This document shows, piece by piece, positions 109 to 24,961 of a stretch of DNA of 64,000 nt. Positions within the stretch are counted from its first letter, which is position 1. Every line of letters starts with the position of its first letter. The stretch lies in contig VGZE01000002.1 in assembly GCA_016872755.1 (NCBI GenBank), positions 1 through 64,000 on the forward strand, written 5' to 3'. The stretch is from Planctomycetota bacterium (GTDB lineage Bacteria; Planctomycetota; UBA1135; GCA-002686595). Both the position numbers and the translations under genes were made by a program. The notes under the pieces are model-generated. The model was not told where the DNA came from, did no database searches, and worked only from the letters and a program-made list of their open reading frames with translations.

Positions 109-1698
109 CTACCGATACACCACGCGGCGGATCACGCCGGTGTGCTTGCACGTGTTGCACGGCACGAGCCGGCTGCCCGAATTGACCGCGGTCTGGCCGC
201 TGCGCGCGCCGCCGCCCGAGTTGCCGGGCGTGCTCGGCACGATGCCGCCGGAAGCCACCTCGGTCGCGCCCTTGCCCGCGCACTCGGGGCAGTTCTCGCC
301 CTGTACGGTGATGACCTGCATCGTTCCGCCGTACTCGGCGTGGTATGCGAGCATCCATTGCACCTTGGTGGCGACCAATTGCTCGCGCCAGTAGCCCTCC
401 GCATCCTCGGAGTCCTGCGCGCCGCCGCCGGCGGCCTTGCGCGCGACCTCCTGGTTCTTCAGGTAGCGCGCGAGCGCCTCCTCGATCTTCTGCTGCTCGC
501 TCGTGACGGCCTTGGGAAGCTCGGGCTTGGCGGGATCCTTCTTCTTGTCGAGGTCCTTGCGCGCGCGTTCCTCGCCGAGCAGCCAGGTGCCGAGACCGTA
601 GGAGGAACGGCGCTGGCCGCGCTTCTCACGCGCGTCCCACAACGCCTTGACCTTGGCCGGCTCCAGCCCCTTGGCGGACTTCTGCAGGCTCGCCGTGACC
701 GCATCCAACGTCTCCTGCGCGAGCGCACCGCCGGCGTACTCGACGCATTGCGCGAACGAGTACTTCTGCGCCGCGGCGCGGCACAGCCGCTCCGCCTCGC
801 GGAACCAGAGCGACGCGATCTGCTGCTTCAAGTACGCCTCGCGCGCCTTCTCCAGGCGGTCCAGCGACTTCTTCCATTCGGGCAGCAGCGGGCTCTGCGG
901 CCAGCGGTCGCGGAACGCCTGCGACAGCGCGAGCGCCTTGTCGAAATTCTCGCGCTTGCGCTCGAGGTCGATCGTCGCGATCGCATCGACCTGCTCCTGC
1001 AGCGCGGCGCGCGCCGTCGTGCGCGCGCGGGCGGCGGCGACATCGGCCGGCTTGAAGGCCGGGTCCTTCGCGGCGGCCTCGCCGTAGTGCTTTGCCGCGC
1101 CGGCGTAGTCGAGGATCTTCTCGCAGAAGCGCGCCAGTTCGAAATCGGACTCCCCCGCCGGCAGGCCGCTCGCGGCGAGTTCGAGCTGCTTCTGCTGGTA
1201 CAGCTCTTCCTTCGTGTAGATGTCCAGCGCCGGCACCTGCACCTGCGTCGCGGGACCGGCGATGCGCGAGAGCGGCACCTGCAGCAGGCTCTGCGCGGTC
1301 TTGATGTGCAAGGCGTCCGGCGCGTGATTGACGATCTTGCCGACGACGTTGCGGCCGTCGGTCAGCGGCACCTGATCGGCGCTCACCAGCACCTCGCCCC
1401 CGTTGGGATCGAGGTAGCCGAAGTCGATCTGCAGCTCGCGCGCCTGGGAGGGATCGAGGCGGCTCCAGTCGAGCGCCACACGGCCGCCGGTGTCGATGCG
1501 CACCAATTCCAGTCGTTCACTGGTGTGAGAGCGGATCGACGCCCACAGGATCGAACCGTCGCGCAGCTTGATCATGCGCGCGGCGGCTGCGCCTGCGGCC
1601 GGGCCCGGGCCGGCATCCTGTGCAACGGGCGCGAGCGCGAGGAGGAACGAGATCGCCAGCACGGCGATCAGGGACGGGAGACGCATATTGTGGATCAT
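109..1698 (-). CDS. Secreted protein with helical mid-region and C-terminal CXXC pairs
   Basis: The start at MIHNMRLPSL gives a typical signal peptide (hydrophobic residues about 8-24, then Ala-rich). A second in-frame ATG four codons on (1686) is an equally good start. Residues about 40-170 look beta-rich ('LRDGSILWASI', 'DGRNVVGKIVNH'). The middle (about 180-430) is helical and charged with TPR-like spacing ('FCEKILDYAGAAKHYGEAA'). The C-terminus has two CXXC pairs, 'CPECAGKG' and 'CNTCKHTG', reminiscent of the zinc-binding modules of DnaJ. It lies between the pseudopilin genes and a lipoprotein in the same operon. I do not recognise a named family; a periplasmic structural or assembly role is inference. 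Confidence 0.75.
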   Translation of the reverse strand: MIHNMRLPSLIAVLAISFLLALAPVAQDAGPGPAAGAAAARMIKLRDGSILWASIRSHTSERLELVRIDTGGRVALDWSRLDPSQARELQIDFGYLDPNGGEVLVSADQVPLTDGRNVVGKIVNHAPDALHIKTAQSLLQVPLSRIAGPATQVQVPALDIYTKEELYQQKQLELAASGLPAGESDFELARFCEKILDYAGAAKHYGEAAAKDPAFKPADVAAARARTTARAALQEQVDAIATIDLERKRENFDKALALSQAFRDRWPQSPLLPEWKKSLDRLEKAREAYLKQQIASLWFREAERLCRAAAQKYSFAQCVEYAGGALAQETLDAVTASLQKSAKGLEPAKVKALWDAREKRGQRRSSYGLGTWLLGEERARKDLDKKKDPAKPELPKAVTSEQQKIEEALARYLKNQEVARKAAGGGAQDSEDAEGYWREQLVATKVQWMLAYHAEYGGTMQVITVQGENCPECAGKGATEVASGGIVPSTPGNSGGGARSGQTAVNSGSRLVPCNTCKHTGVIRRVVYR

Positions 1699-2189: not shown

Positions 2190-3259
2190 GGTCTCCAGTC
2201 CTCGCGCTGCGCCGGCACGACCACCTCGCGCAGGCTGCGTTCGCCGTACCTCAGCCAGGTGCCGGCCTTGTGCTCTGCCGCGCGGGTGCCACGCTGCGCG
2301 CGGCGCACGCGCGCCTCGTTCGCACTCGTGCCGACCAACTCGAGCCACTCCTCGTCCAGCAACAGGAAAGTCCCCGGTGGAGGCAGTTTCGTCGCGTCGT
2401 CGACGATCACGCTGCCTTCCTTGAGCCCCAAGTCGGCGCGCGTCGACACGCGGCGCTGGCGCGCGCGCGGCGTCTCGACCTCCAGTGTCAGTCGCATGCG
2501 GCGCGGCAGCTGCGGACGGCGCACGCCGAGCGGCGAGGCAAGCGGTTGCATCGCGGCGCCATCCTCGTTGCTCGCGCTGCGCTCGGCGTCCGGGCGGCCG
2601 TCGCCGCGCGCATCCCAGCTCGTGCAAGCCTGTTCGCGCGCCGCGCCGATCTCCCAGCCGCGCGACAGGTCCGTCCCCACGCCCGCGCACAGCGCCTCGA
2701 ACCAGAGCACGCCGCCGGTCACGTCCTCGAGCACGCCGGCCGGCGGGCGGCCGCCGCTGCCGAAGAAGCGCGGGTCGAGCAGCGAAGTGCCCGCTCCCGG
2801 TCCGTACAGCCGCACGCCGCGCGCGAGCAGACCCTCCCACTCGCGGTTCGCGGCCGTGGTCGAGGAGGGCAGCAGCGCCCAGCAGACCTCGACCAGCCCC
2901 TGACCGTGCGCCTTCTCGGCCGCATCGACCTGCAGCCGCTCGATCTCGCCCGCCGATGCCGCGCGCACCATCCGCAGGCGCAGGCAAGGCAGGCGCGGCA
3001 GCCCATCCCCGTCGACGTCGAACAGCGCCCATTCGACCAGCAGGTCGCCGCGCGGCCCGCTCTCGACGGCCGCGAGATCGGAGGCGAGCAACTCGGTCAC
3101 CGCGCTCGACAGCTCGTTCTTCGAGCGGCGCTCCTCGGTCTTGCGCCACAAGGACAGCGACGTGTCGAGCAGCGTGACCAGCGCGAGCACGAGCAACGAC
3201 GCCAACCCGAGCGCGAGCACGAGCTCGATCAGCGTGAGACCTCTGCGGCGTCCGCTCAT
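2186..3259 (-). CDS. Type II secretion pseudopilin, GspJ-like
   Basis: This 357-residue prepilin has the leader MSGRRRG followed by 'LTLIE' (Glu at +5) and a transmembrane helix of about 20 residues. Early after the helix it has the pattern of GspJ/PulJ proteins ('LLDTSLSLWRKTEER', a helix continuing into the periplasm, then beta structure). At about 350 residues it is longer than the usual roughly 200 for GspJ; the C-terminal half is extra and of unknown fold. It overlaps both neighbours by ATGA junctions. GspI-GspJ-GspK form the pilus tip in known systems, and the three are adjacent here. Confidence 0.78.
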   Translation of the reverse strand: MSGRRRGLTLIELVLALGLASLLVLALVTLLDTSLSLWRKTEERRSKNELSSAVTELLASDLAAVESGPRGDLLVEWALFDVDGDGLPRLPCLRLRMVRAASAGEIERLQVDAAEKAHGQGLVEVCWALLPSSTTAANREWEGLLARGVRLYGPGAGTSLLDPRFFGSGGRPPAGVLEDVTGGVLWFEALCAGVGTDLSRGWEIGAAREQACTSWDARGDGRPDAERSASNEDGAAMQPLASPLGVRRPQLPRRMRLTLEVETPRARQRRVSTRADLGLKEGSVIVDDATKLPPPGTFLLLDEEWLELVGTSANEARVRRAQRGTRAAEHKAGTWLRYGERSLREVVVPAQREDWRP

Positions 3260-6200
3260 TCGTCCAGCCTCCGCAGCGTGCGACCCGGGGCGTACGAGCG
3301 CAGGCCGAAGAGCTTCAAGCGTGGCGCGCACTTCCAACCGTGCGCGGTGCCGTTGGCGTAGTCGAAGGAAGTCGGCTCGTGCTTGACGAACGCGCGCAGC
3401 TCGACGCGGTCGGCGAGCGCTTCGAACGGATGCGGTTTGCCCTCGGGCAGACCTTCCCACTGCAGGCGCAGCGGACCGCCCTCGCTCGGATCGGCGTCCC
3501 ACGGCACCGCGCGGTCGAAGCGCACGAGCATGCCGACATGGGGACCGGGAGCCTGCCCGGGCTCGGCCTGCCAGAAGCCCTCTTTCCACCACGCGCCGGG
3601 CTGGTCGATGCAGGCGCCGTAGTACGCGAGCTCGGGCGCGTCGGCGCGCTCGGCCCAGCGATCCCAGTAACGGAACGGGAACTGCACGACGGCGCTGCCG
3701 GCCAGATGCGCGTCCGCCGTCGTGCCGTAGCGGCCGCGGAAGAGCGGGCCGCCGCGCTGGTCATCGGCGCCGGGCGTGCTCGAGGCGAGCGGCATCTCGA
3801 GCCCGCCGCCGCGCTGGCGCGTCCAGTGGAACAGCTCGCCGCCGACGAGCGCGGTGCCGGCCTGCGGGAACTCGTCCAGCGAGGCCAGTGGCAGCAGCGC
3901 CTCGCTGCCTTTCACATCCAGAGCCAGCCGCGAGACGGTGCGGTGCGACAGGAAGGTCACGCACTCGCCGACCTCATGCGTCTCCTCATCGCTGCCGAGC
4001 AGGCCGCGGCCACCCGGCGCGATCACGATCTGGCCCGACTGCGGATCGCGGTCCATGTACGCGACGATCTCGCTGCCGATGCGCAGCAGACCGGCGTCCT
4101 CCGGCAGCGCGCCGAGTACACCGAGCTGGGTCATCGATCCGTTCGGCAGTCGAACCGCATTGGCGGCGACTTGGAATCCGTTCGATCCGGCGACCAGCGG
4201 GGTCGCGACGATCAGTTGCGCGCCCAGGCCGGGATCACCCAGGTTGCCCGTGGGGAATGCGGTCGAGCCGAACACGACCTCGTCGATGACGCAGGAAGGG
4301 ATCGCGCCGGCCGAGACGGGCGCGCCGATGCCGGCGTTGGACGCGGCGACCGCACCACCGAGCTTGACCGTCGGCGCGACGCGCGGGCGCTCACCGCTGG
4401 GGAACAGCGCGAGGCGCGACTGCAGCCGCCGGTCGACCATGACGGACGAGCCGGCCGCCGAGCCGAAGGCACCGGACGGGATCAGCATCGGGGAGCCGTC
4501 GTCGAGCGCGACCCAGTAGCCCTCGTGCTCGAGGCCGGTGTCCTCCTCGTTCTGATAGCTCTGCAACGAGTAGCTGCCGCTCCTGTAGCTCCAGATCTCG
4601 ATATTGCCCGGTTGCGCGAGCGCACCGGTCGGATCCTGTTGCCATGCGTACACCGGATACTCGTACGGCGCTTGCGCGTGCTGCACGGTGACCGGCCAGG
4701 CCGGCGCGTTCGGATCGCCGTCGTGCAAAAAGGCCTGGTCGAGACCGCCCGGCCAGCCGGTGTTCGGGCCACCCTCGACCGTGCGGAATGCCGGCACGAT
4801 CCGCGTGCCCGCCTCGTGCGGGTGCGGGTACGTGCCGAGCACGCCGCGGAACTGCAGCGCGCTCCAGACGGCCTTCGTCAGCGCGTAGTCGTCGTAATTC
4901 GGCTCCATCGCGCCGATGGTCGGGCTCCACACCGAGGTCGAAGGGGCCCCCGTGCTCTGCACGGTGCTCGGCGGTTGTGGCTGTGGAGCAGGATCGGGCT
5001 CCGGCTCGGGCAACGGCGGGGTGCCGCCCGGTCCTCCCGGTCCGCCCGGTCCGCCGGGCCCGGTGCCGCCGCCCCCGCCGCCGACCGGCCCGGGCTTGCC
5101 GTCGATCTGGGCAGGGATCGGGAGCACGGCCGAGACGTACGCGCGCTGCAGGTAGATCGGATCGGCGCGCACGAGCTGGTTGTTCGCGATCGAGTCGTAG
5201 CGCAGCCACTCGGTGCGCACTCGATCGGCACCGGTGTGCACGAATTGCGCGATCTGCGACTTGAAGTTGATCGGCACCGGGAAGTTCGCGGCGGGAGACG
5301 CGGGCACCGAGATCGGGAACACGAAGAGCTGGTAACGCAGCGTTGCATTGACCTTGGCGGGGTCCTGCACATTGCCGCCCCATTCGGTCACGAACGCGCG
5401 GCGACCGCCGTAGGTCGGCACACTCTGCCCCGGCTGCGACTGCAGTGCGTTGTAGCCCAGTTCGCCGGGAGAGAGTCCGCGCTGCGCGATGAAGAGCCGA
5501 TTGTTCGACCAGCCCGAGTAGCGGATCACCTCCATCCCGAAGATCGGCGTGCCCTTCGTCGTCACCGTCGGAGTGATGACCAGACCGGAGGTTTGATTGC
5601 GGATCGACAGCGCGATCTGGCACATCACCGCGTAGCCGCCCTGCTGCGAGAACGCGCTCATCACCGCGCCCTGCGGCATGGCTGCATCGGCCGGACCGAG
5701 TTCGAGCGCGGTCACGTTGCTCGCATTGCCTTCGATGCCGTTCCCCAGCGCCAGCGTCGCGATGCCGCCGGTCGGATTGGTCGGATCGTTGATGACGATC
5801 TCGTCGCCCTTGGTCGCGCTGCCGCCGACCACGGCGTTGACCTGCGCAACCGCGAACGGACCGATCGCGCCCGGCAGCGCTCCCTCGCCGGTCAGCACAT
5901 CGGATGCGAGCGCGAGCGAGTAGCCGTACAACATCACCGGCGTGCCCGCTGCGTGGTTCAGGTTCTTCGAAAGGCCGACCAGCGGGACCGAGGTCACCCC
6001 CGTGCCCGTCACCGTCAGGTTCATTTCCTCGCGCGCCATGCGGCCGCCGCGTCCGGCGAAGGGACCTGAACTCTCGTGCAGGCAGGTGAAGCGCGTCGCG
6101 CTGCTGACACGGGCCTCGATCAGCTCCTCGCCGATTCGCAGCACGCAGGGATCGGGGAAGCCCTCGGTCGTCTCCACGTCGATCTGCGAGGAACCGTCCA

Positions 6201-8511
6201 GCAGCGGCGCCGTCAAACGCGTCAGCCCGCGCGTTTCCGGTCGCGCCATGCCGTCGGCGAACAGCGCGATCTGGTCCGCACGTGTTCCGCGCACGTCGAA
6301 TGCGACGTGCGACCAGATCTCGTCGGGCAGGTTCGACAACGGCCAGCGCGCCTCGCCCTGCTCGACGAACTGCGGCGTGGCGGGGTGGTCGCCGAACGCA
6401 TCGAGCACGCGCAGCACGAGGTCGGTTCCCTGCACGAGCAACGACACGCGGTCGGTCTGACCTTGCGCGCCGCCGAGGTCGAAGAGCAGGTCGCCTTCCT
6501 GCAGGCCGCGCGGCTTGTACCAGGCCTCGAATCCGATCGGACGCAGCAAGCCGTTGCCGTCGGTCCAGCCGACCAGCGCGTCGTTCGCCGGCCGCACCAC
6601 CGTCTCGTCGGGCAGGTAGCGGCCCTCGGGATCGCGCGTCTCCCAATCGAAGTGAATCACGCGGCCCTGGCGCTGCCCGCTCTCGTCGGCACGCGCGGCC
6701 CACGGCTGCACCCAGGCCGTCTCGCCGCGCGACGGGAAGGACGGCGTCACGTTCGGCACCGTGCCGGCCTGGAGGTTCGTGAGGTCACCCGCCCAGCCGC
6801 CGACGTGCGCGGACGTGTACGGCGGCGGCACCGCGCCGTACTGCGCGTCCCAGCGCAGCGTCGGCCGCGGCCCGCTGGTCCACCAAGGAGCGTCGGCCGA
6901 CAGGCGCGCCGCTTCGTCGAAGTCCTCCTGCCGCGCGAGCACGGTCAAGAGCTCGCGCTGCGGGACGACGAGCTCGACCTGGTCGCGCCGGCGCGAGGAG
7001 CCCTCGACGCCGGCCGCTTCGCCGGGACGCGCGCGGTTCACCGAAGAGCGCACGTCCAAGCCGAAGACCTCGCGCGACGTGAAGCAGAACGGCAGCGTCG
7101 CCCAGCCGAGCTCGGCATCGTTCGCGTTGATGCCGTTGCGATACAGCGCCATCGCGCTGTCCTGGTCGAGGATCGGCGGCGGAGCCGACGCGCCATCGGG
7201 CGACGCGAAGTCTTCGGGCACGATCGGCGCGTCGGCCGGCAAGGCCTGCAGTCCGGCCGACGGCAGGATCACGCGATTCAGGAAGTCCTCGAAACCGGTG
7301 AACGGGCGCGAAACGACGACCACCTGCGCCAGGCGCCGCGCCTGCTCGGGGCCGACGCGCGAGCGCGAACGCGCCAGGCCGACGTGCAGGAACAGGGCTT
7401 CGAGCACTTCGACCGGCGCACTGTTCAGGTTCACCGCGCGTCGCGCCAGCGGCTGGATCTGCGCTTCCTGGGCCGAGTACGAATTCACCACGGGGCGCGC
7501 GAGCCGCAGCGAGCCGCCGCGACCGAGCTCGAGCACCAGCGCGAGTTCGCTGGTGCGCCCGTCGAAGATCCGCACGGTCGTGCCCGCTCCGAACCAGCGG
7601 CTGTTGGCGACGTTGACGCTGCAATCCTTGCCGCCGACGAGATCGTTCGTCACGCGCGTCGGCGCCTGCCACTCCTGACCGGCGCGCACGCCGCCGTGAA
7701 CGGTGGTGAAGCGCGCGAGCTGCTGCCAGACCTGCGGCGGCAGGCCGCCCGACAGCATCAGCGACTCCGCGTCGCGCGCCTGCTCGGGACCGTCGAAGGC
7801 GCGCAGTTCGCCCGCTCCCTGCAAGCGCCACAGCGGGATCGCGAGCATGGCCTGATCGATCGCCACCGCGACGCGCGGGATGTTCTGCGCGGGCCGGGGC
7901 AGGCAGGGATCGGCCTTGCCCTCGCTGTCGACGGCCGAGCCGAGGCCGCGCTGCAACTGGCGGAACACCGATCCGTCGCGTTGCTGGTAGCGCAGGATCT
8001 CGCCGCGAATCCACAGGAAGCCCTGCGCGTCGAAGCCGCTCGCATCGAGCACGGGGAGTTCCACCGCGTCGGCGGCGACCTGATCGGCGAGCTGCGACGC
8101 GCGCCCCAGCAGGTTCGCGAACAATTGCGGCGGCGCACTGTTGAGATCGATCAGCCCGGCCTCGTCGCGCACGTCGAGATCCCACATCGTGCCGCGCGGG
8201 TCGGATGGATCGTAGGTTGAGCCGGCGAAGCGGTTGTCGACCGACAATTCCCGGGCGTCGTCCCAGTACGGCGTCTTGTCGAGCGCGGGGTGCGTGCCCT
8301 GCAGCCGTGCCTGCGCATGGCGCACGGCGGTGTCGAGCGCGACGCGCGATCCGGCCTGATCGACCAGCTGCTGACTGGCCGAGTCGGCGTTGCGCACCGT
8401 CAGCAGGAATGGCGCGAGCAGCACGAGCAGCGCCAGCAGCACGAGCAGCACGGTCAGCATCGCGAAGCCGCGCCGGCTGGAGCCTGCGGCCGTGATCGGG
8501 TGTGCGCTCAT
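3256..8511 (-). CDS. Giant GspK-like minor pseudopilin with LamG-like domain (1751 aa)
   Basis: The N-terminus is 'RRGFAMLTVLLVLLALL': a prepilin-type site with Thr instead of Glu at +5, which is the hallmark of GspK. Asn-Ser-Ala-Pro helix-hairpin-helix segments typical of GspK follow at residues about 120-131 ('DLNSAPPQLF') and 359-371 ('VNLNSAPVEVLEAL'). GspK is normally about 300-350 residues; this protein has 1751. The extra part includes a LamG/concanavalin-like region at about 655-760 ('GFEAWYKPRGLQEGDLLFDL', 'WSHVAFDVRG'), long beta-rich stretches, and a Gly/Pro-rich linker at about 1139-1177. It is coupled by ATGA junctions to the genes on both sides. A tip-displayed, possibly glycan- or surface-binding protein is an inference from the LamG-like domain. 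Confidence 0.8.
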   Translation of the reverse strand: MSAHPITAAGSSRRGFAMLTVLLVLLALLVLLAPFLLTVRNADSASQQLVDQAGSRVALDTAVRHAQARLQGTHPALDKTPYWDDARELSVDNRFAGSTYDPSDPRGTMWDLDVRDEAGLIDLNSAPPQLFANLLGRASQLADQVAADAVELPVLDASGFDAQGFLWIRGEILRYQQRDGSVFRQLQRGLGSAVDSEGKADPCLPRPAQNIPRVAVAIDQAMLAIPLWRLQGAGELRAFDGPEQARDAESLMLSGGLPPQVWQQLARFTTVHGGVRAGQEWQAPTRVTNDLVGGKDCSVNVANSRWFGAGTTVRIFDGRTSELALVLELGRGGSLRLARPVVNSYSAQEAQIQPLARRAVNLNSAPVEVLEALFLHVGLARSRSRVGPEQARRLAQVVVVSRPFTGFEDFLNRVILPSAGLQALPADAPIVPEDFASPDGASAPPPILDQDSAMALYRNGINANDAELGWATLPFCFTSREVFGLDVRSSVNRARPGEAAGVEGSSRRRDQVELVVPQRELLTVLARQEDFDEAARLSADAPWWTSGPRPTLRWDAQYGAVPPPYTSAHVGGWAGDLTNLQAGTVPNVTPSFPSRGETAWVQPWAARADESGQRQGRVIHFDWETRDPEGRYLPDETVVRPANDALVGWTDGNGLLRPIGFEAWYKPRGLQEGDLLFDLGGAQGQTDRVSLLVQGTDLVLRVLDAFGDHPATPQFVEQGEARWPLSNLPDEIWSHVAFDVRGTRADQIALFADGMARPETRGLTRLTAPLLDGSSQIDVETTEGFPDPCVLRIGEELIEARVSSATRFTCLHESSGPFAGRGGRMAREEMNLTVTGTGVTSVPLVGLSKNLNHAAGTPVMLYGYSLALASDVLTGEGALPGAIGPFAVAQVNAVVGGSATKGDEIVINDPTNPTGGIATLALGNGIEGNASNVTALELGPADAAMPQGAVMSAFSQQGGYAVMCQIALSIRNQTSGLVITPTVTTKGTPIFGMEVIRYSGWSNNRLFIAQRGLSPGELGYNALQSQPGQSVPTYGGRRAFVTEWGGNVQDPAKVNATLRYQLFVFPISVPASPAANFPVPINFKSQIAQFVHTGADRVRTEWLRYDSIANNQLVRADPIYLQRAYVSAVLPIPAQIDGKPGPVGGGGGGTGPGGPGGPGGPGGTPPLPEPEPDPAPQPQPPSTVQSTGAPSTSVWSPTIGAMEPNYDDYALTKAVWSALQFRGVLGTYPHPHEAGTRIVPAFRTVEGGPNTGWPGGLDQAFLHDGDPNAPAWPVTVQHAQAPYEYPVYAWQQDPTGALAQPGNIEIWSYRSGSYSLQSYQNEEDTGLEHEGYWVALDDGSPMLIPSGAFGSAAGSSVMVDRRLQSRLALFPSGERPRVAPTVKLGGAVAASNAGIGAPVSAGAIPSCVIDEVVFGSTAFPTGNLGDPGLGAQLIVATPLVAGSNGFQVAANAVRLPNGSMTQLGVLGALPEDAGLLRIGSEIVAYMDRDPQSGQIVIAPGGRGLLGSDEETHEVGECVTFLSHRTVSRLALDVKGSEALLPLASLDEFPQAGTALVGGELFHWTRQRGGGLEMPLASSTPGADDQRGGPLFRGRYGTTADAHLAGSAVVQFPFRYWDRWAERADAPELAYYGACIDQPGAWWKEGFWQAEPGQAPGPHVGMLVRFDRAVPWDADPSEGGPLRLQWEGLPEGKPHPFEALADRVELRAFVKHEPTSFDYANGTAHGWKCAPRLKLFGLRSYAPGRTLRRLDE

Positions 8512-9533
8512 TCGACGGTCCCGTACAAGCCGACCGTGATCCACTCGCGCGCGCCGTCCTCGAAGTCCAGCGCGATGCGCACCGGCTTCTCGTGCGCGCG
8601 GCGGTCGAGGCCGCCGCCGGCCTGGAAACGCAGCACGAGCTCGCTCTCGGGCGGGAAGGACACGCCCTTGGGCAGCTCGACGTCGGCGGTCGCGGCAACC
8701 GCGGTGAGCACGAGCGCATCGAGCTGTCCGCGGAACGGGCTGCGCGCGCTGCCGATCACGAGCGGGCCCTCGAGCGCCCACACGGGCGCCTGCTCCTCGA
8801 CGCGCGCGACGGCCACGCCGTCGATCGAGAGCACGAGCTCCTGCTGCGCGTACTCGAAGCGCACGCGTTTCCACACGCCCAGCGGCAGCGCTCCGGGCTC
8901 GCTCTGCGCGATCACGTGGCCGCCGCGCGCGACGCCGCCGTCCTGCGCATTCGCCTCCGGCGCGAACCAGCCGCGCAGCGCGCCGTCGCGCAGCACCTGC
9001 AGCCCGAAGCACCCGCCCGCGTTCGCGATCTCGCCGGCATCCGCGCTGCCGCGGCGCAGCGCGCACTCGAGCGCGAAGCCGTAGCGGAAGTCGGAAGCCG
9101 AGTCGCGTTGGATCGGCAGCTCGACGCGCGCGCCCTCGGCCTCGACGTCGAGCTCGAGCGCGCGTCCGATGTAGCCGTCCTCGGTCAGCTCGGCGTCGAT
9201 CGCACGGCCGCTGATCCCGAACGCGCCCGCCAGCTCGGGCGACTCGAAGTGCCAGGTGCCGATGATCTGTTGGAAACGCGGCGCCAGCGCGCGGCGCTTG
9301 GGCTCGATGCGCACGGCCGCCTCGGCGCGCCGGCTGATGGCCGAATTCTGCGCCGAACGCAGCGTGTTGCGCACGAGCCCGACGGCCTGGCGCTTCGAAA
9401 CGTCCAGGGCCGCGAACATGCCCAGGCCCAGCCCCATCACCGCGCTCAGGATTCCGAGCACGAGCAACAGCTCGAGCAGGGTCAGGCCCTGGCGGGCCTG
9501 GCCGGTGTGCTGGCGTGTGCTAGGCGTCGGCAT
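8508..9533 (-). CDS. GspH-like pseudopilin fused to a LamG-like domain
   Basis: The protein (341 residues) opens with a prepilin leader and cleavage site (G16|L17, 'LTLLE', Glu at +5) and a hydrophobic helix. The next segment ('VGLVRNTLRSAQNSAISRR') matches the start of GspH/FimT pseudopilins. From about residue 150 on the sequence reads as a LamG-like sandwich ('VWKRVRFEYAQQELVLSIDG', 'LEGPLVIGSARSPFRGQLDA'). Usual GspH proteins are about 170 residues, so the C-terminal half is an added domain. ATGA coupling to the giant GspK-like gene supports joint assembly. The start was chosen at ATG 9533, 20 bases after the GspG-like stop. Confidence 0.78.
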   Translation of the reverse strand: MPTPSTRQHTGQARQGLTLLELLLVLGILSAVMGLGLGMFAALDVSKRQAVGLVRNTLRSAQNSAISRRAEAAVRIEPKRRALAPRFQQIIGTWHFESPELAGAFGISGRAIDAELTEDGYIGRALELDVEAEGARVELPIQRDSASDFRYGFALECALRRGSADAGEIANAGGCFGLQVLRDGALRGWFAPEANAQDGGVARGGHVIAQSEPGALPLGVWKRVRFEYAQQELVLSIDGVAVARVEEQAPVWALEGPLVIGSARSPFRGQLDALVLTAVAATADVELPKGVSFPPESELVLRFQAGGGLDRRAHEKPVRIALDFEDGAREWITVGLYGTVE

Positions 9534-9553: not shown

Positions 9554-10174
9554 CTAGGGGGTGTTGCCCCAGAGGGTCACGTCGTCCGCTGTCCCAAAAC
9601 GGCCGTCGGCGCCGGCCGAGACGAGCTGATACTTGTCGGGCCGCACGAACAGGCCCGTCTGCTGGTTCGTGCGCGCGCGGAACGTGCTCTCGATCTCCTC
9701 GCCCGTGTCCGGGTTGATCGTCAGGTACGTTTGCGGGTTGCCGTAGTCGGCGCGGTGCTGGTAGGCGACCGGGTTGTCCCACTGGTCCTTGAGCTCGAAC
9801 AGCTCGGTCGTGTTGAACTCCGTCAACCGGCTCTTCGAGTTGTCGCCGTCGCTGTTGACGAGCAGGTCCTCGAAGGCGCCGCCGCCGGCCTTGGTGCCCT
9901 TGGAGTGCAACGCGACGACCAGGCACTCGATGCCGAGATTGAGCGTGTTCGGCAACGCCCCCCAGGCCTGCGGCGGCGTCGACGGCGGGTAGTCTCCGTG
10001 CTCGGCCTCGTACTCGTCGATCGCCAGCGCGAGATTCGACAACGACGCGCTGGTCAGCCGCTCCTTGGACGAGCCGAGCACGCCGTCGAACTGCGTGATC
10101 AGCACGGCCATCAGGATGGCCAGGATCACGAGCACGGCGAGCAGCTCGATCAGCGTGAAGCCGGCGCGTCTCAC
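9554..10174 (-). CDS. Major pseudopilin, GspG-like
   Basis: The 206-residue protein starts MRRAGFTLIELLAVLVILAI, a very short leader with Glu at +5, as in major pseudopilins. The C-terminal part has GspG hallmarks: 'DQWDNPVAYQH' and 'SAGADGRFGTADDVTLWG', the latter resembling the acidic calcium-binding loop of GspG. The start codon is GTG, overlapping the TGA of the TPR gene as GTGA; choosing it removes the need for a long upstream leader. GspG polymerises into the periplasmic pseudopilus of type II secretion systems. The protein is somewhat longer than usual (about 140 residues), with an insertion in the middle. Confidence 0.85.
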   Translation of the reverse strand: MRRAGFTLIELLAVLVILAILMAVLITQFDGVLGSSKERLTSASLSNLALAIDEYEAEHGDYPPSTPPQAWGALPNTLNLGIECLVVALHSKGTKAGGGAFEDLLVNSDGDNSKSRLTEFNTTELFELKDQWDNPVAYQHRADYGNPQTYLTINPDTGEEIESTFRARTNQQTGLFVRPDKYQLVSAGADGRFGTADDVTLWGNTP

Positions 10175-12984
10175 TGCGCGACTCCGCGGTAGACGATGTC
10201 GCAGTCGTCGATGCGCACCAGCGTGGCCCGTCCGACCTCGCCCTCGACGAACACGCCGGCGCGCAGCTCGGTGGACGCGCGGCCCAGACCGGGCATCGCG
10301 ACGCCCTCGCGCACGGGCACGCCGTCGACGAGCACGTTGACCAGCGGCTGCGTCGAGTCGCCGCCGATCTCGATGCGCAGTCGCACCCATTTGCCGGCCG
10401 GGAAGGGCGTGCCGACGATGTCGTTCTCGGGCACGTCGCTCTCGCCGGACTTGACGAAGCGCGCCTGCAGCTGCCCCTCGGAGTGACGCGACACGCGCGC
10501 CTCCGAGAGCACGTCCAGGCGGCCGCGCCCTTCCTTCTCGCGCGCGACGAACAGGCCGACGCGCGCCTGCGATCCTGGTGCGACGAACAGGCTCGCCTCG
10601 ATCGACACGAATTGGCTGGCCGACTTGAAGGTCTGGAACACGCGCACCTTCCCGGGCTCCTTGAACTGGCCTTCGATCTTCACGTTGCCCTCGAGCATCG
10701 AGACGATCGGGCCGGCGCCTTCGTCGGCGGTCCACCCGTTCTTGAGCGTGTTGCGATCGAAACGATCGGTCCACAGCGTCTTGTCGAGGTGGTCGGCGAT
10801 GCGCAGGACCTGCGCGTTCGCCCAGGCGCGCCACGGATCGCTGTCGGGCTGCGAGCGGCGGCGGTCGTCGAGCGCGCGGAGCTGGATCAGCGCTTCCTTC
10901 GGATTGCCCGAGCGGTACACGCACCAGGCCGCGCCAGCGGCCGCCGTCGGCTCGTTGGGATCGAGCGCGAGCGCTGCCGCGAAAGCGCCGCGCGCGGCGC
11001 CCAGATCCCCCGATTCGAGCGCGTTGGCGCCGCGCAGCACGTGCGTCGACGCGCGCTGCGGCGCCAGCCGCAGCGCCTGATCGTAGTAGCGCTCCGCGTC
11101 GGCGTGTCGGCCGCGCGATTGCGTCAGGCGGCCCAGCTCGACCAGCACGGCCTCGCAGTCGATCTCGCGCGCCAAGGCCTGCTGGAACATCGCCTCGGCC
11201 GTCTCCTCATCGTCGCGCGCGCGCGCCAGCCGCCCGCGCTGGTAGAGCACCCAGGCATCGGTCGGATCGGCCGCGTGGGCGCGCTCGATGCTCGCCCAGG
11301 CCTCCTCCGAGGCTCCGCACAGTTCCGCGAGCCAGCTCTGCGCGCGCAGCGCGCCGACCTCGCGCAGCGGATCCGCCTCGCGCGCGCGCAGCAACAGGTC
11401 GCGCGCATTCGCGAAGGCCCCCGCGCGCAGCTGCAGCAGACCTCCGAGCAGCAGGAGCTCCGGCTCGGCGTTCGGCAACGCGGCGTTCGCCCCGACTGGA
11501 TCGGCCAGCCAACTCGCCGCGGCGGAGCCGAGCGCGCCCGCATCGGCCAGGGCCTTGGCGACGTCGCCGCCCTCGAGCATCACGGCGCTGATCCAACCGA
11601 CCAGCGCGCGCTGATCGGAGCTCTCTGCGCTGAGTGCGGCGCGGAACACGTCGCGCGCGGCGGCGAGTTCGCCGTTGGCGATCAACGCGCGACCGTGATC
11701 GTTGCGGATCTCGACACGCTCGCTCTTGCGATTCGGATCGTCGGGCGCGAAGCGCGAGGCGAGCTCGAGCGCAGCCAGCGCCTCGCGCTCGCGCCAGCGC
11801 GCGAGCAGGAAGCGCCCGCGCGCCCACTGCACCTCGTACGAACCGCGCTCGCGCTGCAGCGCCAGGTCGAGCTCGGCCTCGGCCCGGTCGAACAGCAGGA
11901 AGCGCTCGTAGAGGCCCGCCAGTCGCACGTGCGGCAGCGCGCGGTGATCGAACTGGCGCACCAGCTCCTCGTAGGTCGCGAGCGCGCGCTCGAAATCGAA
12001 GCCCGCCTCGTAGCAGCGGCCCAGCCCCAGGCGCGGCAGCGGATCCTCCGGATCGAGCTCGGCCAGTGCCTGGTACAGCTCTTCGGCGATCGCGAGCGCG
12101 CGCGGCGCCTCCAGCCGGGCCTTGACGCAATCGTCGGCCAGCTCGAGCGCCTGCAGGTACAGCGAGCGCGACAGCTTGGGCCCCAGCGCGTGCCGGCGCA
12201 GGTCCAGTCGGTTGGCCACCGTCTCGGCGAACCCGAATGCACGCACGCGCTCGCGCTCGAAACGGATCGGCCCCTGGCCGGGGAAGCGCGGCCGACCGCT
12301 GCCCGGATCGACCTCCTCGAACTGGATCGCTTCGCGGACTCGATCGGGGTGCTGCAGCGCGAGCCGCTGCGGATTGCGGATCGTGCCGAACAACGGATCG
12401 AACTCGTTGATCTGGATCCAGTCGTACAACGCGCGGTAGCTCTCCATGCGCGCGGCGCGTTCCTCGGGCGTCTCGGCGGGCTTCGACTCGCTGCCGCTGG
12501 AACGCACGACGCCGCGCAGATCCGCCGCCGGGTCGTTGCCGCCGGCCTGCAGCGCGCCGAACTGCACGATCAGATCGGCGGCCTCGGCCTGCTCGGGCGC
12601 GTCGTCGTCGAGCGCCGGCGCGACGAAGAGCTCGGGCACTTCACGCGGCTCGGGCACGACCGCCAACAGCCGCGACCAAAGCCGCGGTGCCGGCGCGAAC
12701 TCGCCGGGCGGGAAGAGCGCCCAGGAGCGCGGCAACGGCAGTCCCTCGAGCTCCAGCGCGGGCAATGGCCGCGTGTTGGACGGCGGCACGAACGGATCGC
12801 GCGTGATCAGGCGCTCGTCCGACCGCGGCAGGAAGCGTTCCACGTCGGGAGCCGCGTGACGCACGAGCTCGGGTGTCTCGGGGCTCCCTGAGCCGCCGCG
12901 CAGCGGAGGCCGCGACAGCGATCGGAACGCGACCAGGCCGACCAGCCCGGCGGCCACGAGGAAAACGATCGGCTCCTTGCGCAT
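10171..12984 (-). CDS. Membrane-anchored TPR protein with C-terminal beta-sandwich domain
   Basis: The 937-residue protein has one N-terminal membrane segment (residues about 5-20), then a Pro-rich region, then a long series of tetratricopeptide-like repeats (about 250-760; examples 'LYQALAELDPEDPLPRLGLG' and 'RGRLARARDDEETAEAMFQQ'). The C-terminus (about 745-937) reads as a LamG-like sandwich ('WTDRFDRNTLKNGWTADEG', 'GKWVRLRIEIGG'). It sits between the PilO-like and GspG-like genes, in a place where pilus operons often carry an assembly factor such as PilP or a TPR pilotin. A role as a periplasmic scaffold for pseudopilus assembly is inference. ATG start; GTGA overlap with the next gene. Confidence 0.75.
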   Translation of the reverse strand: MRKEPIVFLVAAGLVGLVAFRSLSRPPLRGGSGSPETPELVRHAAPDVERFLPRSDERLITRDPFVPPSNTRPLPALELEGLPLPRSWALFPPGEFAPAPRLWSRLLAVVPEPREVPELFVAPALDDDAPEQAEAADLIVQFGALQAGGNDPAADLRGVVRSSGSESKPAETPEERAARMESYRALYDWIQINEFDPLFGTIRNPQRLALQHPDRVREAIQFEEVDPGSGRPRFPGQGPIRFERERVRAFGFAETVANRLDLRRHALGPKLSRSLYLQALELADDCVKARLEAPRALAIAEELYQALAELDPEDPLPRLGLGRCYEAGFDFERALATYEELVRQFDHRALPHVRLAGLYERFLLFDRAEAELDLALQRERGSYEVQWARGRFLLARWREREALAALELASRFAPDDPNRKSERVEIRNDHGRALIANGELAAARDVFRAALSAESSDQRALVGWISAVMLEGGDVAKALADAGALGSAAASWLADPVGANAALPNAEPELLLLGGLLQLRAGAFANARDLLLRAREADPLREVGALRAQSWLAELCGASEEAWASIERAHAADPTDAWVLYQRGRLARARDDEETAEAMFQQALAREIDCEAVLVELGRLTQSRGRHADAERYYDQALRLAPQRASTHVLRGANALESGDLGAARGAFAAALALDPNEPTAAAGAAWCVYRSGNPKEALIQLRALDDRRRSQPDSDPWRAWANAQVLRIADHLDKTLWTDRFDRNTLKNGWTADEGAGPIVSMLEGNVKIEGQFKEPGKVRVFQTFKSASQFVSIEASLFVAPGSQARVGLFVAREKEGRGRLDVLSEARVSRHSEGQLQARFVKSGESDVPENDIVGTPFPAGKWVRLRIEIGGDSTQPLVNVLVDGVPVREGVAMPGLGRASTELRAGVFVEGEVGRATLVRIDDCDIVYRGVAQ

Positions 12985-12996
12985 GCGTGGGCTTGC

Positions 12997-13785
12997 TCAG
13001 TCGGGTGTGGGCGGGTCCTGGCGCAGGCGCGCGACCACGAAAGTCGCGGTCAGCCGCGCTTCCAGCGCGCTGCCGCGCACCTGCAGCACTTCGGCCTCGT
13101 CGATCAGCAACGCCTGCGTGGTGCCCGCGACCGCGCCGGGATCCTGCGTGCGGCGCAGGAAACGCGCGATCGCCTGGCCGGTGCCGGTGGCGTTCACGCG
13201 CACCTGCGTGCGCTCGATGGGATTGGTGCCGGCGCGCGTGTACAGCGCGGGGTCGAGCTTGATCTCGAGCAGGTCGATGCGCGCGAGTTCGCAGGCCACC
13301 GCCGCGCGCACGATCCGATCGACGGCGTCCAGGCCCTGCAAGTAGCGCTCGATCTCGTCCTCGCGCGTCGGCGACAGCGCCGGCAGCCCGAGCGCGCGAT
13401 CGAGCGTGAGGTTGGCGCGGCTGGCCAGCGGCATCAGCTCGGCCTGCGTGGCCGCGACGATGGCGTGGTACTGATTGGCGACCGAGCCGGCCGCCGGATC
13501 GACGCGATAGGCCGGGCGCGTCTGGAAGTGCACGGCCTCGGCGAGCTTGCTCACCGCGCTTTCCAAGGCCGCCTTGTCGGCCTGCGCCTGGTCCTGATCC
13601 GCGCGCGTGTACAGCGCCGCGCGCGACATCTGAGATTGCAGCTGGATCTGCTGACCGCGCAGGCGCGCGAGGTCCTGCCCCCAGGCCGCATCGATCGCGA
13701 TCCAGCCGCCGGCCGCGCAGGCGATGCCGATCGCGAGCCCGAGCAGGAAGCGGCGGTTCTCCTGCCAGAACGCGTTGACGTCCAT
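12997..13785 (-). CDS. PilO/GspM-like inner-membrane assembly protein
   Basis: This 262-residue protein has a short cytoplasmic N-terminus (MDVNAFWQENRRF), one membrane helix (about 12-31), a periplasmic coiled coil ('LRGQQIQLQSQMSRAALYTR') and a small alpha/beta C-terminal domain. That architecture is the PilO/GspM type. It lies directly after the PilM-PilN fusion (4-base gap), the canonical PilM-N-O order of type IV pilus alignment complexes. Sequence identity to PilO is weak by eye, so the call rests on topology and gene order. It would link the cytoplasmic PilM part to the periplasmic machinery. Confidence 0.7.
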   Translation of the reverse strand: MDVNAFWQENRRFLLGLAIGIACAAGGWIAIDAAWGQDLARLRGQQIQLQSQMSRAALYTRADQDQAQADKAALESAVSKLAEAVHFQTRPAYRVDPAAGSVANQYHAIVAATQAELMPLASRANLTLDRALGLPALSPTREDEIERYLQGLDAVDRIVRAAVACELARIDLLEIKLDPALYTRAGTNPIERTQVRVNATGTGQAIARFLRRTQDPGAVAGTTQALLIDEAEVLQVRGSALEARLTATFVVARLRQDPPTPD

Positions 13786-15459: not shown

Positions 15460-17595
15460 CTACGAGCCCCCTTCCGGCGGCGCTTGTCGGAGCGCCTCGT
15501 CGAGCAAGGCCGCCAGCCGCCCCTGCGCCGGGAGCGCAATGCGAATCGCGCGCAGGCGCTCGATGTCCGTGCCGCGCATCCCGCGCCCGGCCGTGCGCGC
15601 GGAGTTCGCCGCGCGCTCCGCCGCGGCCTGCGCGAGCAGTCCGAGCTCGCTGCCCGCGTAGGCATCGACGAGCGCGCGCGCCTTCTGTTCGCACTGCAGG
15701 TAGAGCTCTTCGAGCGCGAAGAAGTCGGCGCGTTCGAGGTCCGCCTCGATCGCCCCGACCGCCTCCTGTCCGCGCTGCGCGAGCCGCGCGCGCGACGCCT
15801 CGGCTTCCTTGACCAGCGCCTCCTCGAACGGCCACTTCGACAAGAGCTCGCCCCAGCCGCGCATGCACTCGCCCAGGCGCCCGGCCTTCTCGGCCTCGCG
15901 CGCGGCGTCGGCGGCGCGCGTCGCGAGCACGCGATCGTCCTTGAACGAGAGCTGCAACGACAGCTCGAACGGAGCCGGGGTCGCGACGGTGAAGCGGTAG
16001 CCGCCCTCGACCGGCGAGCCGCGCAACGGCAGCGGCTCGGACCAGGACAGGCGCACCATCTGGTAGCCGCTGCCGACGAGCACGCTGGTGGTCGGCGTGG
16101 CCTCGAACTCGCGCTGGCGCGCGCGGTAGCCGCCCGGGCCGATCGTGGCGAGCCCTTGTTTGGCGCTGTTCGGATTGACCAGCCACGCGAGCTCGCGCTC
16201 GCCGTCGAGCGCGCCGAACGAGAGCGCCATGCCGTCGCCGCCGCGCGCGGTCGCGTTCGCCGTGCGCGGTGGATACCCGGCGGGCACATCCTGCGCCGCC
16301 GCGAGCGCGAAGCCCGCCGCGATCCACTGCTCGACGCGCATCAGCACCGCTCCCGCGCGCGCGTCGCCGAGCCAATACAACTTGTAGTCGCCGCTCTCGG
16401 CGGCCGGCGGGACCTGCTCTTCCACCTGCAGCAGCGCGACGTCGTCGAAGGCGGCGCGGCCGCCGCTCTCCGCTCCGCGCGCCGCCAATTGCACCGCCGC
16501 GCGATCCCAGCCGGGCAGCACCGGCAGGCTCAGCTCGACCGGCGTCCAATCCTCGCCGACGACGATCGGCACGCTCCAGGCCTGCAGCGGCGGATGCTGG
16601 TCATCCGCGCCGATCAAACGCACGCCGACGCGCGCCTCGACGCCGCCGCTGCGGCGCACCGCCGCGCGCAGCACGAGAGCGCGGCGCGGCATGACCGCGA
16701 CCGGCGTCGCGGACGACAGCGCCCACTCGTTCGCTCCGAGGCTCGCCACCAGCGCGCTGCGGCCGCTCCGCGCGGCGGTCAGTTCGGGAAACAGCGTCTG
16801 GCTCGCGCCATCGGCGCCGCTCCATCCCGCGGCCGCCGCATCGCCCTCGAACGAGTACGAACCGCCGAGCAGATTGCCCGCCGGAGCGACCGGTGCGTTG
16901 TTCGCGCTCGAGGCGGAGCCCGTGAGTCTGGAGCGATACCACAGCGCCGCACCCCCCGCGGCGAGGAGCAACAGCGCGGAGACCGCGATGGTCGCGAGCG
17001 GACGCTTCTCGCGATCCGCGCGCGACAAGCGCTCGTCACTGAGTTCACCCAGGCCTTCGCCGGCCTGGCTCGCGTCCGCGCGCGGCGCGGCCGACTCCTG
17101 CGGCTGGCGAGCCGCCGGACGCAACTCCGGGCCATCCCCCATCTGCACGTACGACGTACGCGCGAGTCCGGGAGCAGGAGCAGCGGGCGCGCGCACGGGT
17201 GCACTCGACGCCGCCGGCGGATCGTGCTCCTCCAGCGTGATCTCGCCCGCGAGCTCGTCCTCCAACGTCCCGGCCGTCTGCGCTCCCGCCAGCGGCTCGC
17301 GCGCGTCCTGGAAGACCGCCTGCACGGAACCGAAGCGGATCTTCTCGCCGGGCTTCAGCGTGTGCTCGACGATGCGCGCGGCGCCGACGAAGGTCCCGTT
17401 GGTACTGCCCAGGTCGCGCAGCACGACGCCATCGGCGCCGACGCGGAGCTCGGCGTGCTTGCCCGACACGGATGTATCGGCGAGCACGAGCTTGTTCTCG
17501 GGACGGCGACCGACCGTGATCCCCTCGATTGGAATCTGGATCGCGCGCCCGGCGTCCGGCCCCGACTCCAGGCGCAGCGAAAAACGGGCTTCCAT
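15460..17595 (-). CDS. FHA-domain membrane protein heading the pilus-type operon
   Basis: Residues 1-95 form a forkhead-associated domain, with 'GITVGRRPENKLVLADTSVS', 'GKHAEL' and 'LGSTNGTFVG', the conserved phosphothreonine-binding loops. A Pro/Ala-rich linker follows, then one membrane helix (about 210-230, 'TIAVSALLLLAAGGAALWY') and a long extracytoplasmic part that looks beta-rich, then helical near the end. FHA domains bind phosphothreonine peptides, so the protein probably couples cytoplasmic Ser/Thr kinase signalling to pilus or secretion assembly. It is the first gene of the operon and has the only sizeable upstream region (338 bases). The Ser/Thr kinase at 21.3-22.4 kb is a candidate partner by proximity only. 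Confidence 0.8.
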   Translation of the reverse strand: MEARFSLRLESGPDAGRAIQIPIEGITVGRRPENKLVLADTSVSGKHAELRVGADGVVLRDLGSTNGTFVGAARIVEHTLKPGEKIRFGSVQAVFQDAREPLAGAQTAGTLEDELAGEITLEEHDPPAASSAPVRAPAAPAPGLARTSYVQMGDGPELRPAARQPQESAAPRADASQAGEGLGELSDERLSRADREKRPLATIAVSALLLLAAGGAALWYRSRLTGSASSANNAPVAPAGNLLGGSYSFEGDAAAAGWSGADGASQTLFPELTAARSGRSALVASLGANEWALSSATPVAVMPRRALVLRAAVRRSGGVEARVGVRLIGADDQHPPLQAWSVPIVVGEDWTPVELSLPVLPGWDRAAVQLAARGAESGGRAAFDDVALLQVEEQVPPAAESGDYKLYWLGDARAGAVLMRVEQWIAAGFALAAAQDVPAGYPPRTANATARGGDGMALSFGALDGERELAWLVNPNSAKQGLATIGPGGYRARQREFEATPTTSVLVGSGYQMVRLSWSEPLPLRGSPVEGGYRFTVATPAPFELSLQLSFKDDRVLATRAADAAREAEKAGRLGECMRGWGELLSKWPFEEALVKEAEASRARLAQRGQEAVGAIEADLERADFFALEELYLQCEQKARALVDAYAGSELGLLAQAAAERAANSARTAGRGMRGTDIERLRAIRIALPAQGRLAALLDEALRQAPPEGGS

Positions 17596-24449: not shown

Positions 24450-24961
24450 GCGGCTTGCGCGCGCGCACCGGATTCACGCTGCTCGAGCTGTTGATCGCGC
24501 TGCTCGTGCTGGCGGGCGTGGCGGCGCTGGCGATCCCGGCGTGGTTCGATCGGCACGAGGTCACGCTCGAGAAGGCCACGCAGCTGCTCGCGCGCGACCT
24601 GCGCGGGTCGCAGAACCAGGCGGCGTGGCTCGACTGCCCGCTCGCGGTCGTCTTCGACGACGACGGCGGCGGTTGGCGGGTGCACAAGTTCGATCCGCTG
24701 GTGCCCGCCCCGCTCGACCAGGGCGAACAGGTGCGCCGGCGGCGGCTGATCGACGACGCGGTGTTCGAAGGCGTTCGGATCGACTCCGTGGAGACCACGC
24801 CGGAGAGGGCGCTGCGCTACGATCGCTTCGGACAGGCGCTCGACCGCGGCCGGATCACGCTGAGCTTCGACGGCGATCGGCGCACGCTGCGCGTCGAGCA
24901 GGGCTCGGGCCGCCTGAGCATCCTCGACTCGACGTCGCAGTGGTCCGATCCCGGGCTCTGA
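24446..24961 (+). CDS. Prepilin-type N-terminal cleavage protein, GspH/FimT-like
   Basis: The 171-residue product starts MSGLRARTGFTLLELLIALL, with cleavage at G9|F10 and Glu at +5, followed by 'LEKATQLLARDLRGSQNQAA', which resembles the start of GspH/FimT minor pseudopilins. The GTG start overlaps the stop of the upstream pilin-like gene. Together with that gene it makes a two-gene pilin cassette separate from the main operon at 1-17.6 kb. It could supply minor subunits to the same machinery. No promoter is seen between the Clp-like gene and this pair. Confidence 0.8.
   Translation: MSGLRARTGFTLLELLIALLVLAGVAALAIPAWFDRHEVTLEKATQLLARDLRGSQNQAAWLDCPLAVVFDDDGGGWRVHKFDPLVPAPLDQGEQVRRRRLIDDAVFEGVRIDSVETTPERALRYDRFGQALDRGRITLSFDGDRRTLRVEQGSGRLSILDSTSQWSDPGL

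Follow-up and report, generated by a model that had tools for sequence, protein, structure and literature searches.

The stretch of Planctomycetota DNA considered here, 64,000 nucleotides long and referred to below as the window, carries on its minus strand an operon with the gene order GspL-M-TPR-G-H-K-J-I, followed by a further conserved gene (Table 1). The same order is found at all loci examined from the family and the order, save for members whose loci are truncated or whose sequences have diverged too far for detection. The K gene is an uninterrupted open reading frame of 1751 residues, in which a preliminary inspection (the sequence-only reading) had recognized a GspK-like protein at 3256-8511 without naming the strand. 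Its start codon, the ATG at 8511, overlaps the stop codon of the GspH-like gene (ATGA), and its own stop codon is overlapped by the GspJ start at 3259; based on these overlaps, the three genes look translationally coupled. The TPR protein presumably has its anchor in the inner membrane. The operon ends with a gene (109-1698, minus strand) that keeps this place at all loci examined; its product, a 529-aa protein of the secreted type, carries a DnaJ-like CxxC zinc motif at the C-terminal end and had no match among Pfam families. Directly upstream of the GspL-like gene lies a gene for an FHA-domain protein (15460-17595, minus strand), which was detected in few relatives' loci only. Another prepilin-like gene (GFTLLELLIALLVLAG) lies at 24470 on the plus strand, away from the operon.

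Long frames are common at the 70% G+C of this genome, so that the length of the giant gspK frame is in itself weak evidence for a gene; antisense frames of 909 and 714 aa are also present at the locus. Conservation is more telling. Matches were found in 98 of 101 relatives, at about 40% identity within the family and nearly all without internal stops. The 55 intact homologues (1603-1801 aa) can be aligned over their full length, and occupancy is close to 1 nearly everywhere except in a Gly/Pro linker and a few loops; the 62 residues invariant among 27 diverse members are scattered along the whole length. This conservation across relatives establishes giant gspK as a real gene, and on the same ground we rejected both a chance frame and separate translation of the GspK part and the remainder, of which no sign was seen.

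Table 1. Features of the giant GspK operon, in window coordinates; residues are numbered in the encoded protein
Feature	Position	Strand	Basis or remark
GspI-like minor pseudopilin, 161 aa	1704..2189	minus	
GspJ-like minor pseudopilin, 357 aa	2186..3259	minus	
Single module copy at GspJ end, residues 286-345	2225..2404	minus	
Giant GspK-like tip pseudopilin (putative), whole CDS with stop	3256..8511	minus	1751 aa; ORF and conservation
Conserved C-terminal domain, residues 1616-1751	3259..3666	minus	alignment, profile
Module 6, residues 1537-1614	3670..3903	minus	
Module 5, residues 1455-1523, Rcc01698_C-like	3943..4149	minus	
Module 4, second half, residues 1221-1240, RG..GT..H.H..G	4792..4851	minus	weak
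Gly/Pro-rich linker, residues 1136-1176, variable, apparently inside module 4	4984..5106	minus	
Module 4, first half, residues 1088-1113, before linker	5173..5250	minus	weak
Module 3, degenerate, residues about 980-1017	5461..5574	minus	weak
Module 2, residues 772-864	5920..6198	minus	
LamG/ConA-like domain, residues 600-770	6202..6714	minus	models in relatives, hhalign
GspK core, residues 16-425 (T2SSK), LNSA motifs near 123 and 362	7237..8466	minus	family models
Module 1, residues 150-220, inserted inside GspK core	7852..8064	minus	
Class III leader, cut after G15, plus hydrophobic helix, residues 1-38	8398..8511	minus	sequence; kept in relatives
GspH-like pseudopilin, 341 aa, C-terminal LamG domain at 8511-9176	8508..9533	minus	
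GspG-like major pseudopilin, 208 aa, DGRFGTADD loop	9554..10180	minus	TIGR01710 9.5e-13
TPR protein, one N-terminal hydrophobic segment, C-terminal ConA-like domain at 10174-10773	10171..12984	minus	
PilO/GspM-like protein	12997..13785	minus	position and topology only
GspL-like protein, PilM domain, then PilN-like segment	13790..15454	minus	

Judged from its sequence, the N-terminal part of about 425 residues is a divergent GspK. The leader MSAHPITAAGSSRRG is followed by FAMLTVLLVL, with the predicted cut between G15 and F16. The mature protein, beginning FAMLT, is missing the Glu5 that is present in GspG, GspH, GspI and GspJ. Single-sequence searches of Pfam, PDB and PHROG with the window protein were nearly empty, and the signals emerged only with profiles and relatives. 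The protein itself scores low against the GspK equivalog model NF037980 (307 positions; E = 0.002, 17.7 bits) and against T2SSK (E = 0.12), and gave no N_methyl match in Pfam; the best PDB chain for a profile of the core was T2SS protein K, a weak hit (E = 0.12). Such weak scores could be expected if the giant were no pseudopilin subunit at all, being instead a protein of the periplasm or the surface with a pilin-like signal as its mere anchor. This is very improbable, however, given that NF037980 reaches E = 1.5e-14 in one relative (54 bits against a cut-off of 130), that T2SSK matches 14 of 27 homologues, and that the gene has a fixed position between H and J. In a genome search, one homologue exceeded the T2SSK cut-off. 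Because relatives match GspK models, Glu5 is missing and the operon order is fixed, we take the protein to be the K subunit.

The other ~1300 residues form what we call the head, composed of a LamG/ConA-like domain, modules of about 60 residues, the Gly/Pro linker and a conserved C-terminal domain, the last of which matched no known family. The LamG-like domain, beta-rich repeats and Gly/Pro linker of the sequence-only reading are thus all present; that the repeats would resemble phage tail tips, and that GspJ would carry a copy, had not been foreseen. In relatives, the segment corresponding to residues ~600-770 is matched by Laminin_G_3 (E = 4e-6). HHalign linked the same domain to the C-terminus of GspH with 89% probability, and the ConA-like domain of GspH to the C-terminus of the TPR protein with 90%; the direct comparison of GspK with the TPR protein gave only 45%, unrelated controls staying under 2%. 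Structure predictions of the giant from 4-row alignments were unusable (pLDDT 35.1 and 28.8).

The module follows the pattern IG.E...Y ... RG..GT..H..G..V. Giant GspK appears to contain at least four and probably six copies: copies 1, 2, 5 and 6 reach significance and are homologous to one another (90-98%), whereas the signals of copies 3 and 4 are weak, the Gly/Pro linker seeming to split copy 4. Using a profile of the module, we found, in the window and in nearly all loci, at least four copies in giant GspK and one at the end of GspJ; the profile matched nothing else, and nothing in shuffled ORFs.

Among known proteins, the ~60-aa module matches phage tail-tip and baseplate proteins. In the comparison with PHROG tail and baseplate families (2885, 708, 1101 and 4406 being involved) the best match, to a baseplate wedge, had E = 1.6e-12, and phrog_1101 was matched by 21 of 27 giant GspK members. 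The Pfam family Rcc01698_C (PF23666) matches nine of 36 C-terminal regions at E below 0.01 (best 8.1e-8); one relative passes its gathering cut-off (29.2 bits against 27), while the window protein's own copy stays below it. Phage tip proteins of the PDB were also retrieved (8rk3 from JBD30, E = 2e-4; 8vjh, E = 0.027), as were cyanophage virion structural or baseplate genes with tblastn (45.7% identity over 45 aa, E = 3e-4). The protein Rcc01698, or RcGTA megatron, has its fiber-binding domain at residues 985-1304 (PMC7296036), 8rk3 is the JBD30 baseplate (PMC11445458), and tips of the phage type engage receptors (PMC7296036, PMC11445458). From these sequence matches we infer common ancestry of the module in giant GspK and in phage tail-tip proteins, with the difference that in giant GspK it is repeated and joined to a pseudopilin. 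No phage genes were recognized in the operon.

The sequence-only reading had left to a wider search whether other Planctomycetota have similarly long GspK proteins, and they turned out to be widespread, which had not been foreseen. A C-terminal profile built from the giant form has matches in 219 of 392 sampled Planctomycetota genomes and in 154 of 267 genera, the weakest of the 219 matches being possibly other proteins. Direct reading of 16 genomes from outside the order gave giants of 1335-1923 aa. Several Planctomycetota families with nearly complete genomes are without giant GspK. Some genomes have two or more copies; in one family, three genomes (G369, G210 and G239) have several each, some of them on the same contig. 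Since similar giants occur in about half of the sampled genera, the protein is a conserved machine part and no one-off.

Within the family, mean pairwise identity is 0.35-0.54 for the head domains and 0.29 for the linker, compared to 0.39-0.49 for the GspK core and 0.38-0.46 for the remaining proteins of the operon. The head therefore evolves no faster than the core, a level of identity that fits a receptor whose ligand is conserved, or else a conserved part of the machine. These values bear on the first half of the earlier suggestion that the giant is either an adhesin or a receptor for secreted substrates. If it were an adhesin, it would be displayed on a long extracellular type 4 filament and hold the cell to other cells or to particles. 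Pilins that carry a ConA-like or vWA module are indeed adhesins (PMC8179133, PMC9934059), the operon encodes three ConA-like domains, and its platform protein is of the PilM type, as in type IV pili. However, the head matches the core and the machine genes in conservation, which typical adhesins do not, the major subunit of the operon is GspG-like, and a ConA-like domain is also borne by the TPR protein, which is expected to stay periplasmic. We thus regard an adhesin as rather doubtful and prefer a receptor, since a head this conserved speaks for a tip handling a conserved ligand and not for an adhesin of variable sequence.

Taken together, the sequence data make it moderately probable that giant GspK is an enlarged T2SS tip subunit K whose head handles a conserved ligand. 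In this scenario, a head of ~1300 residues would have been fused onto the K subunit of a T2SS-type pseudopilus machine. Once cleaved behind G15 by prepilin peptidase, the protein would cap the H-I-J-K tip complex with its N-terminal helix and GspK core, while its head would sit atop the pseudopilus, facing the secretin. GspJ, with its module, and GspH, with its ConA-like domain, may form part of the same enlarged tip. The tip position is suggested by homology to GspK and ligand binding by the type of domains: the head contains a LamG/ConA-like domain, its module matches receptor-engaging phage tips, and the ConA-like domain of the predicted tip pilin PilC is a lectin. The most likely partner would be a conserved, probably carbohydrate-bearing ligand, either exoproteins to be exported or a polymer met at the cell surface; both the direction of the machine and its substrate are putative. 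It should be noted that LamG folds often bind proteins, not sugars, which counts against a sugar-binding head. The D-E-F genes needed to drive a pseudopilus also count against the T2SS tip: those for secretin, ATPase and platform protein were found in the genome outside the giant GspK locus, and in complete relatives, too, they are unlinked to it.

The phage-baseplate module may, moreover, be only structural, which counts against handling of a ligand. Taken to its end, this view makes the whole head a filler of the secretin vestibule, acting as plug, piston or length stop and binding no ligand, and it would account for the even conservation along the head, for a module common to the neighbouring subunits J and K, and for phage counterparts that are structural proteins of tail tips and baseplates. 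Yet recognition is a common role of LamG domains and of phage tip domains, and the Gly/Pro linker suggests a mobile head, so that we consider a purely structural role quite unlikely. Returning to the ligand-handling tip, one could speculate, as a long shot, that in much of Planctomycetota a T2SS-derived tip has been rebuilt, with lectin-type domains and with the phage-tail-tip modules of GspJ and GspK, to recognize receptors, resembling a phage baseplate in its logic and gripping polymers or other cells rather than only pushing exoproteins.

How does the giant compare to known systems? It resembles T2SS GspK (NF037980, PF03934) in the class III leader, missing Glu5, LNxA motifs and operon place, and differs from it in length (1751 aa against about 300), in module 1 lying within the core and in the ~1300-aa head. 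In the current view GspK caps the pseudopilus; the function of its extra domain has been called unclear (PMC8179133). Among modular type IV pilins, PilC and PilB of S. sanguinis, with a ConA-like lectin and a vWA module, respectively (PMC8179133, PMC9934059), likewise bear a functional domain on a tip pilin, and that of PilC, whose tip position is predicted, is a proven lectin (PMC9934059); they are, however, much smaller and belong to type IV pili of a monoderm. The 'new use of the T2SS tip' proposed in the sequence-only reading is putative, modular pilins being a known principle (PMC8179133, PMC9934059) which giant GspK extends; most surprising is the phage-type module common to K and J. The 2021 survey of modular pilins demanded the IPR012902 motif, its most extreme case having 860 residues and 12 repeats (PMC8179133). 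It probably missed the giant GspK family, because the window protein has no N_methyl match, which suggests that tip modules on K subunits escape surveys needing a standard pilin motif. A GspK with a conserved 1300-residue head, distributed on the scale of a phylum and having modules in common with GspJ and GspH, offers a direct handle on what a type II tip touches, and the common module ties phage tail tips to pseudopilus tips. Similarly very long is Verru_Chthon cassette protein A (TIGR02600, 1296 positions), whose N-terminal ~59 positions match giant GspK relatives (E = 0.0015 and 0.0057), with no full-length match past these positions (16.5 bits against 332). A literature search on these cassettes found no function. 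The neighbours of giant GspK weakly resemble cassette proteins B and D.

On contig 13 of the same genome, genes for secretin, ATPase and T2SSF are clustered, and two pilin-like genes lie downstream of them. Within the family the ATPase shows strong conservation and no linkage to the giant GspK locus; a synteny link between cluster and locus was rejected, as the two are far apart in complete relatives. The 552-aa GspK encoded on contig 9 (locus L121, 1831-3738), in which the module profile found no copy, is of a more ordinary type with Gly-rich loops. Since this second, more ordinary GspK adjoins a secretin gene, the genome appears to hold more than one type II-like system.
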